DNA from: Eubacterium sp.
GTDB taxonomy: Bacteria > Bacillota > Clostridia > Lachnospirales > Lachnospiraceae
Assembly (NCBI GenBank): GCA_024684035.1
Contig: JAIKXQ010000073.1
Span: 1-64,000, forward strand
Length of the DNA: 64,000 nt
Direction: 5' to 3'
Part shown: piece after piece, positions 5,967-15,544 of the stretch
How positions within the stretch are numbered: position 1 is the first letter of the stretch
How the letters are laid out: each line of letters begins with the position of its first letter
Made by a program: the position numbers and the translations under genes
The notes under the pieces: model-generated
Databases searched by the model: none
What the model saw: the letters and a program-made list of their open reading frames with translations, nothing else
Told to the model about the DNA's origin: nothing

Positions 5967-7181
5967 ATGAAAGTTACCGTGGCAATTGATTCGATGAAGG
6001 GATCTCTGGGTTCTGTGGAGGCCGGAGAGGCGATCCGGCGGGGGATTCTGCTGGCAGATAAAAGCGCGGAAGTGCGTGTCTGTCCGATCGCGGACGGAGG
6101 TGAGGGCACTGTTGAGGCTCTGACCTTGGGGCTTGGCGGAAGGATGGAACAGGTGTCTGTGACAGGTCCGCTCGGAGCAAAAATAACTGCGCGGTACGGA
6201 ATCCTTCCGGAAGACTCTGGGTTTAACGGAAACTCCTTGAGTGAAGACGAAAGAACGGATTTGTCCCGTTTGTCCGATACAGGAGGGAAGACTGCCGTGA
6301 TCGAGATGGCAGCCGCAGCCGGCATCACCTTGATTGGAGAAAGCGAGAGGAATCCTTTGTGCACGACAACCTACGGTGTCGGTGAGATGATCCGGGATGC
6401 GATCGAAAAAGGGTGTAGACATTTCATCGTCGGTATCGGAGGTTCTGCGACGAATGACGGCGGAATCGGTATGCTTCAGGCTCTGGGGTTCAAATTTACG
6501 GACGGGACTGGAAAGGACGTTCCCTTTGGCGCGCAGGGATTAGGTCTGCTGAAGACATTGAGCGATGATGCGGCTCTTCCGGAACTGGCAGAGTGTACAT
6601 TCCGGGTGGCCTGTGATGTCTCGAATCCTTTATGTGGAATTAACGGATGCAGCGCCGTCTTCGGCCCGCAGAAGGGAGCTGATTCCGATATGATCCGGCA
6701 AATGGATCAGTGGCTTGCTTCTTATGCTGCCCTGGCCGGAGTGAGATATCCCGGGGCAGATCCGGAAGAACCGGGAACGGGAGCAGCCGGAGGTCTCGGC
6801 TTTGCGTTCCGGACTTTTATGAATGCGGTACTGGAATCCGGAATAAAGATTGTTTTGGAGGAGACAAAACTGGAAGACTTCATCCGGGATTCGGATCTGG
6901 TCATCACAGGAGAAGGGCGGCTGGATTCCCAGACGGCAATGGGAAAAGCTCCAATTGGCGTCGCAAAGATCGCGAAGAAGTATGACATTCCGGTGATTGC
7001 TTTTGCCGGAGCAGTCGCGCCGGATGCGGGGATTTGCAATGCGAACGGGATCGATGCCTTTTTTCCGATTCTCCGAAGAGTATCAACACTTGAAGAGGCG
7101 ATGGATCCTGCAGTCGCAAGACAGAATCTGACAGATACCGCAGAGCAGGTGATGCGGCTCTACCTTCGTGCAAGGCGGTAA
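5967..7181 (+). CDS. Glycerate kinase
   Basis: MKVTVAIDSMKGSLGSVEAGEAIRRGI, GIGGSATNDGGIGMLQALG, GEGRLDSQTAMGKAPIGVA. Confidence 0.95.
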   Translation: MKVTVAIDSMKGSLGSVEAGEAIRRGILLADKSAEVRVCPIADGGEGTVEALTLGLGGRMEQVSVTGPLGAKITARYGILPEDSGFNGNSLSEDERTDLSRLSDTGGKTAVIEMAAAAGITLIGESERNPLCTTTYGVGEMIRDAIEKGCRHFIVGIGGSATNDGGIGMLQALGFKFTDGTGKDVPFGAQGLGLLKTLSDDAALPELAECTFRVACDVSNPLCGINGCSAVFGPQKGADSDMIRQMDQWLASYAALAGVRYPGADPEEPGTGAAGGLGFAFRTFMNAVLESGIKIVLEETKLEDFIRDSDLVITGEGRLDSQTAMGKAPIGVAKIAKKYDIPVIAFAGAVAPDAGICNANGIDAFFPILRRVSTLEEAMDPAVARQNLTDTAEQVMRLYLRARR

Positions 7182-7236
7182 TATCCGGTTTACATTTATA
7201 TTGATTAAAAATGAAGGAACAGGGAAGTGGAGTGAC

Positions 7237-8349
7237 ATGTTTGTTATTGAGGGGTTAATCAACAGAATAAAGCAGATTCGGGGGTATTACGGGGAGCGTT
7301 ACGATGAGGGTGAATACTATGAATTCTGTACGAATTGCGATGCAAATCTTACCCTTCAGAAGGGATACAGCCCTTCGCTGAAATACTGGTATTGCAGGGG
7401 GTGTGGTCAGCTTCAAATCAACCCTGATATGGAATCAGATATCGTCTGGTACTGCGACCGATGTGAGGCGGTTTTAACCGATCAGGAAGGATTCACGGAG
7501 GAAGCAGGTGAGTGGAAATGTACGAAGTGTGGTTACGTGAGCAAATTAGACTCTAAAAATATTTTTCTGACAGAGGAAGAGCGCGAGGAGGAGATGAAAA
7601 ATCCTTACCGTGGGCTTTCGAAAGAGGATCTCTTGCGTCTACATTTATATACGAATCGCGAACCGGTCGGCGGCAGAGAAGATGTTTTTCGAATCTGTGA
7701 GAAGGAGACCGGGCGGAGCTATATAGAGAAACGGCTGATGACATATGAGAAAAGCATCTACGAATTTCTTCTGGATCATCCGGTAGCGCATATGCCCCGG
7801 ATCAGAGAAGTATTTGAGGGGATGAACAGGCTGATCGTGATTGAGGAATATATCGAAGGACGGACGATCGCCGAGTTGCTGGATGAATCTCTGATTTCGG
7901 AAAAGAGAGCGATCGAAATTGTGAAAGATCTTTGCGTCATTCTTGATGATCTGCACCACCTTTCCAATCCGATCATTCACAGGGATATCAAGCCGTCGAA
8001 TATTATCCTGTCTCCGGAGGGGGAAGTGTACCTGTTGGACATGAATGTGGCGAAATGGTACGATCCGGATCAGAAGGATGACACCAGATATCTTGGAACG
8101 GAGCATTACGCGGCGCCGGAGCAGGTCGGCTATGGCTTATCCGCCTCGTCTCCCAGAACGGATATTTATGCGGTCGGTGTACTGATGAATGTTATGATTA
8201 CCGGCAGGTATCCGAAGGAGCAGCCTGCCATTGGAGAGCTTCGGAAGATCATCGAACGCTGTACGAGCCTGGAGGTTGCGCAGAGATATACGGAAAAAGA
8301 ACTGCTCGATGCTTTGGAGTTGTATGAAAGGAAAAATGATGCAAGATAA
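7237..8349 (+). CDS. Serine/threonine protein kinase with N-terminal zinc ribbons
   Basis: CxxC pairs at the N-terminus; kinase motifs HRDIKPSNIIL, LLDMN, GTEHYAAPEQ. Confidence 0.9.
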   Translation: MFVIEGLINRIKQIRGYYGERYDEGEYYEFCTNCDANLTLQKGYSPSLKYWYCRGCGQLQINPDMESDIVWYCDRCEAVLTDQEGFTEEAGEWKCTKCGYVSKLDSKNIFLTEEEREEEMKNPYRGLSKEDLLRLHLYTNREPVGGREDVFRICEKETGRSYIEKRLMTYEKSIYEFLLDHPVAHMPRIREVFEGMNRLIVIEEYIEGRTIAELLDESLISEKRAIEIVKDLCVILDDLHHLSNPIIHRDIKPSNIILSPEGEVYLLDMNVAKWYDPDQKDDTRYLGTEHYAAPEQVGYGLSASSPRTDIYAVGVLMNVMITGRYPKEQPAIGELRKIIERCTSLEVAQRYTEKELLDALELYERKNDAR

Positions 8350-10876: not shown

Positions 10877-11677
10877 TTACTCTCGCCTCATGCGATCGAC
10901 ATCGCCTTTTAGGAATAGATTTCCGTTTACATTGTTCTTGATGGGCTGCAGTTTGTTTGCTTTGACAAAGTGGCTGATATTCTGCCGGCTGCATTCCAGA
11001 ACTGTGCAGGCCTGAGAGGTGTCGTAGGTATAATTCTGAACGAGGACTTTGATGTCATCGAGCGTCAGAGGAATCGTCTGCCCGGTTTCATATAAGATTT
11101 TGGCTGGGATGTCAATGGAATTATTGAAGGAAAAACAATAGCCGTCCGCCCGGATCATTCCCGATGATTTCAATAATTCATTGCCAAGGACTTTGTCCAT
11201 TTCCGGTATACTTTGCAGCTGTTCCTGCGATAGAACCTTCGTCTCTCCGTTTTGAAAGAAGGCGAGAAGTCGGTTGTCGGGGAGAATCGCAGCTTCCCGA
11301 AGATTTGTCTTCTGACGGCTTTGAACATAATCCGGCAGGGTGTCTGTTTTTCTTATATAGAGGCTGTCCTGGGAACATTTGCCCCGGGAAAGCTCCAGAA
11401 ATTTGATTTCATCATATTCTTTCAGCTTGTGGGTTTTCAGAATACTCTGGATATTCTGACGTCCGCTGGGGATCACTCGTTCCCTGACCCACAGAAAGGA
11501 GAATTCACGGGGGATTGTATAAATCCCCTTCTTTACAAAGGCGGTGAATAGAAACGGCGCGCTCCACTCATCCAGATCGTCTTCCAGTTCGATGACGCAG
11601 GATTTTTCTTTTTCATAATACAGAAGAATGCCGACGCTCAACCTGGTTTCTTCATCGAGGATTTCATAAATTTTCAT
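10877..11677 (-). CDS. HipA-kinase partner: HipA-N1/HipS-like domain + DUF2442-like domain + C-terminal HTH
   Basis: LWVRERVIPSGRQNIQSILKTHKLKEYDEIKFLE (HipA N-subdomain-like); LPDNRLLAFFQNGETKVLSQEQL...IDIPAKILYETG (DUF2442-like); QACTVLECSRQNISHFVKANKLQP (HTH-like). ORF is open from 11695; ATG at 11677 preferred. Confidence 0.65.
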   Translation of the reverse strand: MKIYEILDEETRLSVGILLYYEKEKSCVIELEDDLDEWSAPFLFTAFVKKGIYTIPREFSFLWVRERVIPSGRQNIQSILKTHKLKEYDEIKFLELSRGKCSQDSLYIRKTDTLPDYVQSRQKTNLREAAILPDNRLLAFFQNGETKVLSQEQLQSIPEMDKVLGNELLKSSGMIRADGYCFSFNNSIDIPAKILYETGQTIPLTLDDIKVLVQNYTYDTSQACTVLECSRQNISHFVKANKLQPIKNNVNGNLFLKGDVDRMRRE

Positions 11678-12470
11678 AGATTCTGTACCTCTCATAAATC
11701 ATTTTCCAGATGTTTTCCAGGAATGCGTCAGAAAGAACGCTTTCCAGGCCATCAAAAAGATACGTTTTGTCTTCATCTTTGAGATGGTTCGGGAACAGAT
11801 CATTTTTATTCGCAATGAGAGAAAGATTCTCATAGCAGGAATAGGAACCGATGAAATTGTTGCACGGTTTGTCAGCATGAACATCAAAGTGCAACGCTTC
11901 CTGATCGTTTTTGCAGGGATAGATCAGAGAAAGTCCATGATCAAAGAGGGGAGCAATGCGAATGGATTTGCTTCTCGGATTTCGCAGAATTTCTATATTT
12001 GCGCCGTGGCGGTCCCTGTTCAGGATGAAGTAGTCGACAGCGATCATCCGGTCGATGGTCTGCTGCCAGCCGCATCGCACGCAAAAATCATAATGGGATT
12101 CACCGGGCAAAGCATTTGCACGATAATAGTCATCCAGTGCAATTTTGCTCTCGCCTCTTTTTTTGAAATCCTCAGACGCACATACATACGTATCTAAGGG
12201 GCGGCCTTCGACCTCGATCCCGGCGTGAATGAGTTCGTAATCCAGATGCTCGACGCCGAGAAGAGTGAGCAAGCGATCGACAATGATTTCGTTTACACAT
12301 TCATGGCCGATAACGCCTTTTACGGAATCATAATTCGAGAGCTTATAATAGGTTTTTCGTCCATGGAAGAACGATTCAGATTTCAAAAAAGTGCCGGCAG
12401 TACCGCTGGAGCTTCGGACATGAGACCATTTCAGGAAGGAGAGATCCTGCTTTTGATTTATGACATTCAT
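11664..12470 (-). CDS. HipA-like Ser/Thr kinase lacking the N-terminal subdomain
   Basis: Catalytic motif YFILNRDRHGANIEIL, metal-binding LFDHGLSL, loop SSSGTAGTFLKSE and YYKLS; overlaps partner start. Confidence 0.8.
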   Translation of the reverse strand: MNVINQKQDLSFLKWSHVRSSSGTAGTFLKSESFFHGRKTYYKLSNYDSVKGVIGHECVNEIIVDRLLTLLGVEHLDYELIHAGIEVEGRPLDTYVCASEDFKKRGESKIALDDYYRANALPGESHYDFCVRCGWQQTIDRMIAVDYFILNRDRHGANIEILRNPRSKSIRIAPLFDHGLSLIYPCKNDQEALHFDVHADKPCNNFIGSYSCYENLSLIANKNDLFPNHLKDEDKTYLFDGLESVLSDAFLENIWKMIYERYRIYENL

Positions 12471-12512
12471 TGTGTGTGGCCTCCCTTTAATGATAAGTGT
12501 AAGAAAATGCTA

Positions 12513-12565
12513 ATTTGACGTATGACAAATGGAATCAGAATAATTTTATCATATATTTGACGTAT
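12513..12565. repeat. Direct repeat ATTTGACGTATG x2 (12513-12524, 12554-12565)
   Basis: Identical 12-mers, 41 bp apart start to start. Confidence 0.85.
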
Positions 12566-12576
12566 GTAAAATAACA
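12547..12576 (-). promoter_or_regulatory. Predicted promoter of the HipA-like operon (TTGTTA-N18-TATGAT on minus strand)
   Basis: -35 at 12571-12576, -10 at 12547-12552; a copy of the ATTTGACGTATG repeat fills the spacer. Confidence 0.6.
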
Positions 12577-12655
12577 ATACGAAAAAACGAAATATATTTG
12601 TCGACCGACAAGTAAAAACGAAAGAAAGGTAGGCTCGATATCGGGGAAAAGAAAA

Positions 12656-12724
12656 TTAGGTATTGACAAAATACCTAACACGAGTAAAATGAAGATATAA
12701 GTTAAGTATTAAATAAACACCTAA
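12656..12724 (+). promoter_or_regulatory. NrtR operon promoter with two inverted-repeat operators
   Basis: TTAGGTATT-gacaa-AATACCTAA (12656-12678, perfect) overlaps -35 TTGACA (12663-12668); -10 TAAAAT (12685-12690); second imperfect site TTAAGTATT-aaata-AACACCTAA (12702-12724). Confidence 0.7.
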
Positions 12725-12775
12725 CCTCACGGCGAGAGGTTGATTCGAATTGCAAGCGATACAGGGGAAGAGAAA

Positions 12776-13621
12776 ATGGCAGGAACAGATCTTAGAAATA
12801 GAGATGGACTTACGGAGCAGGAGTTTCTCGCGAAGTACAGCCCGGGGGATTACAAGAGGCCGTCGGTGACGGTGGACACGCTGATCCTTGGAATGAACGA
12901 GGATTATTCAGGGATGAAGATCCTACTGATCAAGAGAGGCGATCATCCATTCATGGGATGCTGGGCACTTCCGGGAGGTTTTGTCTCCGAGAATGAGACG
13001 GCACATCAGGCGGCGGCTAGAGAATTACAGGAGGAAACGGGACTCTCCGGAATTTATCTGGATCAGGTCTACACCTTTTCCAAACCGGACAGAGATCCGA
13101 GGACATGGGTGATATCCATTGCCTATCTGGCGTTGATTCCGGATCTGAGGGAAGTGGAAGGTGCGGATGACGCGGCGGATGCGGCCTGGTTTGATCTCCG
13201 GTTCACGGATGAGAAGATTGAGATCAGCAATGAGGAGAAGGGAGTACAGATCTCCTACGATCTGAGACGTGAGGCATTTCGGAACGGCGCTATGCGGTAC
13301 GAGAATTACATACCTACGCTGACCGGTGAGGATGCCCTTGCATTTGATCATGTGGAGATCCTGATCGAGGCATTCAAGAAACTGCGGAAAGAAATCCTCT
13401 ACAATGATCAGGCCTTCTGCATGGTAGAAGAGAATTTCACCCTTCCGGAACTGCAGGCTGTCTATGAGGCAGTGCTTGGACATGAGTTATACAAGAAGAG
13501 CTTCCGCGATATGGTCAAGGGAAAGGTCTCCGAGACGGGACGAATGAAACAGTCGAAAACGAAGAACGGCAGAAAATGTAAAGAATACAAAATGAGCGAA
13601 TGTGAGGAGGAATTGAGATGA
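12776..13621 (+). CDS. nrtR: NrtR-type NUDIX transcriptional regulator of NAD metabolism
   Basis: NUDIX domain (LPGGFVSENETAHQAAARELQEETG) plus C-terminal FTLPELQAVYEAVLGHELYKKSFRDMV winged-helix signature; upstream of pncA and pncB. Confidence 0.85.
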   Translation: MAGTDLRNRDGLTEQEFLAKYSPGDYKRPSVTVDTLILGMNEDYSGMKILLIKRGDHPFMGCWALPGGFVSENETAHQAAARELQEETGLSGIYLDQVYTFSKPDRDPRTWVISIAYLALIPDLREVEGADDAADAAWFDLRFTDEKIEISNEEKGVQISYDLRREAFRNGAMRYENYIPTLTGEDALAFDHVEILIEAFKKLRKEILYNDQAFCMVEENFTLPELQAVYEAVLGHELYKKSFRDMVKGKVSETGRMKQSKTKNGRKCKEYKMSECEEELR

Positions 13622-14151
13622 GCAAGGTATTGGTAGTGGTTGATATGCAGAAGGATTTTGTGGACGGTGCCCTTCGCAATGAGGAGGCTATTGAGATTGT
13701 TCCCTATGTAAAGGAGAAGATTCGCAAAGCAAAAGAAGAAGGGACAACAGTAATTTTTACACTGGATACACACGACGAAGGCTATATGGGAACCGAGGAA
13801 GGAAAGAATCTTCCGGTTCCGCACTGCATCCGCGGAAGTGAGGGATGGAAGATTCTGGATGAGCTGGAACCGGAGAAATACGGCGACGAGTTTTTTGAGA
13901 AGGAGACCTTCGGATCCACGGCGCTTGCCCGGTATTTCACAGAGAATAAAGAAGAGACTGATGAGGTGGAATTTATCGGCGTTTGCACGGATATCTGCGT
14001 GATCTCTAATGTCCTTCTGACGAAGGCTGTATTGCCAAACAAGGTGATCACGGTAGATGCTGCGGGCTGCGCAGGTGTTACACCGAAGGCTCATCAGACG
14101 GCACTGGATGCCATGAAGGCCTGCCATATCCGGGTGGTAAACGAAGGATAA
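13618..14151 (+). CDS. pncA: Nicotinamidase / cysteine hydrolase
   Basis: VVVDMQKDFVDGAL, TLDTHDEGYM, VEFIGVCTDICVISN. Confidence 0.9.
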   Translation: MSKVLVVVDMQKDFVDGALRNEEAIEIVPYVKEKIRKAKEEGTTVIFTLDTHDEGYMGTEEGKNLPVPHCIRGSEGWKILDELEPEKYGDEFFEKETFGSTALARYFTENKEETDEVEFIGVCTDICVISNVLLTKAVLPNKVITVDAAGCAGVTPKAHQTALDAMKACHIRVVNEG

Positions 14152-14335
14152 TGAGACCGAAATGCGGGGCGAATTTCCTGTTCGAGGCTAATCATGGATA
14201 TGAGCTAAGAAAGGAAAAGTTTGAGATTTCCTGATAAAAAAATACGTGCGATCAAAAGCGCAGAAAAACAGAGCCGATTTTGGGATTGAAAACAATAGAA
14301 AAGTTTAAAGATTGAATGGATGGGAGAATAAAACT

Positions 14336-15544
14336 ATGAAATTACAGCCGATTATTACAAGTCTTCTGGAGACAGATCTTTATAAATTCAGTATGGGAAT
14401 GACCATTTATCATCAGTTCCCGTCATATAGAACAACATGGACCTTTAAGTGCAGAAACAAGGATGTGCACTTCACAAAAGAGATGGTGGAAGAGATTCGC
14501 GAACAGATCCGCGCATACTGCAATCTGAAATTCAACGAGGATGAGCTGGAATATCTCGGAAACATTCAGTGGCTGAAACGGGACTATGTGGAATTCCTGA
14601 GACTCTGGCACCCGGTTTTCGAGGACTTCGAGATCACAGATGACGCGCCCTGCGGCCTTGCCATAGAGGCGAAAAGCACCTGGCTGAATTCCTCCATGTA
14701 CGAGATTCCGACGCTGGCTATCGTCAACGAAGTATTTTTCCGCATGAACTACGATTATGAGGATCTGCTCGACTCCTACAAAGAGAGGCTGGAGGCAAAG
14801 TGCAGACGTCTTCGTGAGAATGAGATCTGCCTCGGAAATTTCTCTGAGTTCGGCCTTCGAAGAAGACTCTCTGCCGAGGCACAGGAACTTGCGATTGAGC
14901 AGATCAAGGAGGCCGCAAAGAACAGCAAATCCACGTTTGTCGGAACATCCAACGTTTACCTTGCAAAAAAATACAACATTGCGCCGGTGGGTACCATGGC
15001 TCACGAGTATATCATGTGTGCCGGTCAGGGAAACAACAAACACAATGCCGCCTACTCCAACTGGTACGCCCTGGATGCGTGGATCCGCGAGTATTCGGTA
15101 TTGAATGGAATTGCGCTGACGGATACCATTGGAACGGATATTTTCCTCAAAGATTTCCAGCTCACTTTCGCCACGATGTTCAGCGGTGTGAGACACGACT
15201 CCGGCGATCCCTATGAGTGGGGCGAGAAGATGATCCGTCATTATCAGTCGCTTGGTATCGATCACAAGACCAAGACTCTGCTTTTCTCGGATAGCCTGGA
15301 TTTTGACAAGGCTGCAGCACTGTACGAGCACTTCCACGACAATGCGAAAGTAGCCTTCGGAATCGGCACCTACATTTCCAACGACACGAAGGTTCCTGCT
15401 TTGAATATCGTCATGAAGACAACCGAGTGCAACGGACATCCGGTGGCAAAAATCTCGGATACTCCCGGAAAAGGAATGTGCAAGGACGAGGAATATGTAC
15501 AGTATCTCCAGAGAACGCTGAAGTGGAGACTGGAGAGAGAGTAA
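14336..15544 (+). CDS. pncB: Nicotinate phosphoribosyltransferase
   Basis: LLETDLYKFSMGMTIYHQFP, GTSNVYLAKKYNIAPVGTMAHEYI, FSGVRHDSGDPYEWGEKMI. Confidence 0.95.
   Translation: MKLQPIITSLLETDLYKFSMGMTIYHQFPSYRTTWTFKCRNKDVHFTKEMVEEIREQIRAYCNLKFNEDELEYLGNIQWLKRDYVEFLRLWHPVFEDFEITDDAPCGLAIEAKSTWLNSSMYEIPTLAIVNEVFFRMNYDYEDLLDSYKERLEAKCRRLRENEICLGNFSEFGLRRRLSAEAQELAIEQIKEAAKNSKSTFVGTSNVYLAKKYNIAPVGTMAHEYIMCAGQGNNKHNAAYSNWYALDAWIREYSVLNGIALTDTIGTDIFLKDFQLTFATMFSGVRHDSGDPYEWGEKMIRHYQSLGIDHKTKTLLFSDSLDFDKAAALYEHFHDNAKVAFGIGTYISNDTKVPALNIVMKTTECNGHPVAKISDTPGKGMCKDEEYVQYLQRTLKWRLERE

Follow-up and report, generated by a model that had tools for sequence, protein, structure and literature searches.

A kinase-first Hip module of Lachnospiraceae with a partner combining HipS-like, DUF2442-like and helix-turn-helix domains

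The window, i.e., the whole stretch of 64,000 nucleotides of Eubacterium sp. DNA analysed here, carries two overlapping genes on its minus strand. The first (11664..12470, stop codon included) encodes a HipA-like core Ser/Thr kinase of 268 aa, the predicted toxin, and is preceded by a probable ribosome-binding site, GGGAGG (12480..12485, minus strand), recognised from the sequence. The second (10877..11677, stop codon included) encodes a 266-aa partner in which HipS-like, DUF2442-like and MerR/Xis-type helix-turn-helix (HTH) parts follow one another, and which is the predicted antitoxin and autorepressor. The 3' end of the kinase gene and the 5' end of the partner gene share 14 nt (11664..11677, minus strand). 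The preliminary description of this DNA had located both reading frames correctly, and all the motifs that it quoted were found. A longer in-frame start of the partner is possible at 11695, but the ATG at 11677 is preferred because this start is conserved: 71 of 86 loci have an overlap of exactly 14 nt. The overlap probably reflects translational coupling.

The kinase is a divergent member of the HipA superfamily, recognised by its modelled fold and by the PADLOC model PDC-M03A (3e-8), whereas its score against Pfam HipA_C (19.7 bits) falls under the curated cut-off of 30.5 bits. At the sequence level, its similarity to CtkA reaches E = 0.005 with the single sequence and 2e-5 with the family profile. 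The AlphaFold2 model (pLDDT 92.5, pTM 0.90) retrieved CtkA first in Foldseek (E down to 7e-9), followed by HipT of the E. coli HipBST system and HipA; CtkA is thus the closest solved structure to the kinase core (PDB 3AKJ/3AKK/3AKL, TM about 0.6-0.7), and no partner of the present type is reported for it in the records used. The HipA/CtkA/HipT kinase fold of the model contains the Lys, catalytic Asp and Mg-binding Asp motifs, the last two corresponding to NRDRHGAN (residues 151-158, 11997..12020, minus strand) and LFDHG (residues 175-179, 11934..11948, minus strand), and K43, N151, D153, R154, G156, N158 and D177 are invariant among 83 relatives. The N-terminal subdomain of HipA (N-subdomain-1) is indeed missing, as proposed from the sequence at the outset: the Gly-rich (P-) loop, in the SSSGTAG region, is already reached at residues 19-26 (12393..12416, minus strand), and the model matches CtkA and HipT. 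This loop is the sole low-confidence segment of the model (residues 19-25), and its adjacent serines S21 and S22 are more than 90% conserved; in HipA and HipT, the Gly-rich loop is mobile and serine-phosphorylated (PMC10627512). Not far away in the window, a gene unrelated to the HipA-like kinase (7168-8349, plus strand) encodes a eukaryotic-type protein kinase domain after N-terminal cysteine-rich, zinc-ribbon-like repeats, and the genome of the window has other HipA_C matches on contigs C116 (30406-30858) and C90 (27220-27438).

The partner was modelled confidently along its whole chain (AlphaFold2 pLDDT 94.2, pTM 0.85), and a blind fold search of the PDB gave as top matches Shewanella HipA, NE0471 (2AUW), which we take to be a DUF2442 plus HTH protein, and MerR/Xis-type HTH proteins. 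With the full-length partner as query, Foldseek gave weak E-values (0.024 at best), because each match spans just part of a multidomain chain. A PDB sequence search retrieved chance matches only, and a BFVD fold search mostly matched short HTH proteins. In a profile-profile comparison with negative controls, the N-terminal 113 columns of the partner aligned with the N-terminal domain of HipA-like kinases that consist of a single chain (P = 9.6e-6, probability 83%); in the same comparison, its middle and C-terminal parts gave no alignment with that domain (0.2%). Fold matches and profiles therefore agree with the architecture first proposed, namely a HipS or HipA N-subdomain-1-like domain (residues 1-112, 11342..11677, minus strand) with invariant W63, R67, P70, R73-Q74-N75 and Y88, a DUF2442-like domain defined by profile matches and the fold match to 2AUW (residues 113-204, 11066..11341, minus strand), and an excisionase/MerR-type HTH (residues 206-266, 10880..11062, minus strand). 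Among 80 members of the partner family, DUF2442 was detected in 15 (best 4e-6) and HTH_17 in 58, and the HTH matches a PHROG excisionase at 1e-12. A stand-alone DUF2442 ORF (L042) also exists, and in one relative (L190:1039-2019, genome G200) the partner measures ~327 aa and carries an in-frame insertion that separates its HipS-like part from DUF2442.

The two genes are conserved as neighbours. A scan of 85,462 GTDB species genomes with the kinase profile returned 421 kinase relatives; among the best 80 of these 421, which were inspected, the partner lies directly 3' of the kinase in all 79 testable loci, the contig of the 80th ending at the gene. Similarly, the kinase is found in 34 of 397 sampled genomes of Lachnospiraceae, and the partner adjoins it in 33 of 33 testable loci, so that the linkage is far above chance in both samples. 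The pair is widespread in gut and rumen Lachnospiraceae; a 399-genome sample of the phylum contained no full-length partner outside this family and one HipS-only relative. No natural fusion of kinase and partner was found. Within the family, the partner consists of the HipS-like domain alone (~113-125 aa) in five loci (genomes G048, G181, G331, G337 and G418).

Hip modules in which the kinase gene precedes that of a HipS-type antitoxin have already been described as hipIN, hipJS and hipMP (PMC8262856). Therefore, the gene order noted in the preliminary description is real, but it cannot be considered a novelty. The module of the window is a variant of the known clade-XI Hip modules (hipJS, hipIN/PDC-M03) with a fused antitoxin-repressor, and, as far as our searches extended, a kinase with a HipS-DUF2442-HTH partner is undescribed. 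In hipJS, as here, a short core kinase comes first and a HipS-type antitoxin gene lies downstream, a description that our five HipS-only loci fit; however, the hipJS antitoxin is HipS alone, whereas the partner in the window adds DUF2442 and an HTH and is accompanied by operator-like palindromes. In hipIN/PDC-M03, a kinase plus HipS-HIRAN pair, the gene order and the Couple_hipA/HipS-like start of the partner are shared, but a HIRAN DNA-end-binding domain stands in place of DUF2442-HTH, and the kinases are on separate branches. HIRAN was not among the frequent matches of the 80 partners. PDC-M03B does match 73 of these 80, and in the window partner the match (residues 65-106, model positions 73-114) is confined to the part that corresponds to Couple_hipA, the HipA N-terminal domain, in the full-length PDC-M03B protein, whose HIRAN is C-terminal. 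Stand-alone HIRAN ORFs are present in the genome of the window on contigs C96 (15944-16189) and C53 (4414-4581). As for hipMP, HipP was described as gamma-delta-resolvase-like (PMC8262856), and the 25 most frequent Pfam matches of the 80 partners include no resolvase family. The view that the module is a plain, already described member of hipJS or hipMP, for which the kinase-first order, the short kinase without N1, the HipS-like partner downstream and the resemblance of the basal HipS-only relatives to hipJS can be invoked, is hence quite unlikely, given the HipS-only antitoxin of hipJS, the resolvase-like HipP and the lack of any mention of DUF2442 in PMC8262856.

Other two- and three-gene systems are more distant. 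The hipBST modules of E. coli O127 and Legionella likewise comprise a core kinase without N1 (HipT), a HipS-like inhibitor related to HipA N-subdomain-1 and a separate DNA-binding function, but these are three proteins encoded in the order B-S-T with a Cro/C1-type HTH in HipB, in contrast to two proteins with the kinase first. On these features we rejected membership of hipBST, as we did that of hipIN and hipMP on those given above; hipBA was rejected because there is no upstream HipB HTH gene and the kinase lacks N-subdomain-1. HipAD/DS-6/PDC-M66, a HipA-like kinase with DUF3037, also has two genes, and its one partner, which is not HipB, has been predicted to bind both kinase and DNA; its partner domains are DUF3037/DUF1829, whereas the partner in the window has neither, and the absence of DUF3037 led us to reject this assignment too. 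Finally, dhiTA (DUF4160/DUF2442) is toxin-first like the window module, and its DUF2442 antitoxin represses its own promoter (PMC8198452), but its toxin is DUF4160, not a kinase, and no HipS domain was described there.

Upstream of the kinase, k-mer counts revealed a palindrome with the consensus ATTTGACG-NN-CGTCAAAT, i.e., ATTTGACGNNCGTCAAAT. Requiring at least 12 of the 16 fixed positions within 200 bp upstream of the kinase, it is present in 85 of 87 loci with an HTH-bearing partner and in none of the five HipS-only loci (Fisher p = 4e-7; 1.8% in shuffled sequence), the consensus being derived from the same loci in which it was counted; this association is strong but confounded with phylogeny, since the HipS-only loci are the basal and most diverged lineages. 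Most loci have two palindromes ~42 bp apart. The first holds the -35 element TTGAC, with the -10 following 15-19 bp (~17) on in 58 of 68 two-site loci, and the second overlies the transcript start in the relatives with two sites. The window itself has three degenerate copies at successive spacings of 41 and 42 bp: ACTTGTCGGTCGACAAAT (12596..12613), ATTTTACATACGTCAAAT (12555..12572), which covers the -35 hexamer, and, nearest the start codon, ATTTGTCATACGTCAAAT (minus strand, 12513..12530). Between the latter two lies the sigma-70 promoter predicted for the operon, TTTACA-16-TAAAAT (12543..12570, minus strand). That such promoter-overlapping palindromes track the HTH points, at the sequence level, to the HipB-like role that had been assigned to the partner. 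Farther upstream, NAD-salvage genes diverge from the operon (12740-15544, plus strand; an NrtR-type NUDIX regulator, an isochorismatase/PncA-like protein and a nicotinate phosphoribosyltransferase), and a different palindrome, TTAGGTATT-TTGTC-AATACCTAA (12656-12678), overlaps a plus-strand promoter, TTGACA-16-TAAAAT (12663-12690), and is probably the NrtR-type operator of these genes.

The losses observed within the family are one-way. None of the 397 genomes has a kinase-only locus, while loci with the partner but no kinase do occur, and two independent lineages have deleted the body of the kinase gene. In a genome of the same genus (G010), a deletion of ~0.7 kb has taken the ribosome-binding site and ~230 kinase codons, including all catalytic motifs, and left three operators, the promoter and an intact partner 98% identical to that of the window; the two partners differ by 2 synonymous and 4 non-synonymous codon changes, which are too few to judge whether the orphan stays under selection. 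An independent deletion in G393 (L182:1033-2400) spared the promoter, a candidate operator, the ribosome-binding site and a start codon, which are now joined to the last 33 codons of the kinase, and the partner that follows is intact. In addition, G341 has an orphan HipS-only ORF, and in G223 and G151 the kinase is missing and the partner has decayed. The loss of the kinase with retention of the partner is the pattern expected of a toxin and its antitoxin. It weighs, together with the conservation of the HipS-like inhibitor domain, against a regulatory switch without a toxin, in which the kinase would act on the partner or on some other regulator, with repression of this or other promoters by the partner. 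The HTH partner with its strong candidate operators could suit such a switch, and non-toxin-antitoxin kinases such as CtkA are among the relatives of the kinase; however, of the motif sites listed for the genome of the window (up to two mismatches), only those upstream of the kinase itself are densely clustered, and we find this alternative improbable.

A phylogeny of the kinases groups the DUF2442-HTH loci into a single clade (UFBoot 94) that lies inside successive HipS-only lineages (88, 95 and 94). The simplest reading would be that a kinase-HipS pair arranged like hipJS gained the DUF2442-HTH tail and the operators once. Fusions of another kind were also encountered: in four loci (L056:2205-3556, L023:1264-2474, L029:540-1839 and L015:1032-2439), a HipB-HipS fusion of ~180-190 aa, which unites an XRE-type HTH with a HipS-like domain, is encoded upstream of a core kinase, these kinases forming a separate clade (UFBoot 99-100), and in a further locus (L022:452-1846) one chain of 465 aa comprises an HTH, a HipA N1-like domain and the kinase. 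The genes around the module rarely recur, as 366 neighbours fall into 298 clusters, the commonest of which occurs in 7 of 65 loci, and one copy, with its frame shifted near the start of the partner, is on the plasmid pNP95. The lack of a shared neighbourhood and the plasmid copy indicate that the module moves on its own.

This patchy distribution, with one plasmid copy and no shared neighbourhood, could also be expected of an anti-phage defence system, in which the same kinase-inhibitor pair would act by abortive infection: on detecting a phage factor, the DUF2442 or the HTH part would free the kinase. Indeed, both proteins match the PADLOC candidate pair PDC-M03, and a distinct HipA plus DUF3037 pair (DS-6/HipAD, PDC-M66) has been validated in defence (PMC13092281, PMC12548924). 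Nevertheless, the PDC-M03 match is limited to the core of the kinase and the HipS-like region of the partner, a location in defence islands was sought and not found (the immediate neighbours are mostly housekeeping genes and the PADLOC matches are single and scattered), and the phage records examined (INPHARED) contain no partner, only distant kinase matches and no record encoding both. A role in defence is thus possible but somewhat doubtful. A broader proposal, that an ancestral kinase-HipS pair captured DUF2442-HTH in a single event, together with a paired palindromic promoter, to give a single-chain antitoxin-repressor, and that a DUF2442 sensor frees the kinase upon a phage or other signal, so that Lachnospiraceae of rumen and gut would have here a distinct and widespread system for defence or stress, appears unlikely at present.

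We therefore regard the module as most probably a type II toxin-antitoxin operon with a fused antitoxin-repressor; fold, profile and synteny agree with the preliminary idea of a two-gene, kinase-first toxin-antitoxin or signalling system whose partner takes on the roles of HipS and HipB. According to this toxin-antitoxin model, the free kinase would stop growth by phosphorylating an essential target, which may, by analogy, be a translation factor of the tRNA-ligase type. The partner, translated from the conserved overlap, would do in one chain what hipBST assigns to two proteins, HipS and HipB. HipS is bound at the Gly-rich loop of HipT, where it blocks ATP (PMC10627512, PMC9325769), and by analogy the HipS-like domain may sit on the kinase beside this loop and keep it inactive. 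Trp65, the residue that serves as the plug in E. coli HipS, is apparently not conserved, its position corresponding, in a motif alignment made by eye, to the invariant R73 of IPSxRQN; thus, the chemistry of the contact between the HipS-like domain and the kinase should differ from that of E. coli HipBST. The DUF2442-HTH part would in turn bind the paired palindromes over the promoter and repress the operon, and a DUF2442 beside an HTH is plausible there because in dhiTA, where the toxin gene also comes first, DUF2442 serves as an antitoxin that represses its own promoter (PMC8198452).

These results also call for caution with defence-candidate models such as PDC-M03, which touch modules with other partner domains. 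The module is common and offers an exact 18-bp candidate operator, alleles from which the kinase has been deleted naturally, and well-defined residues for mutagenesis. If our reading holds, it shows that a plug-only kinase inhibitor, HipS, can become a full autoregulating antitoxin by domain addition, and the state before this addition survives in the relatives with a HipS-only partner.
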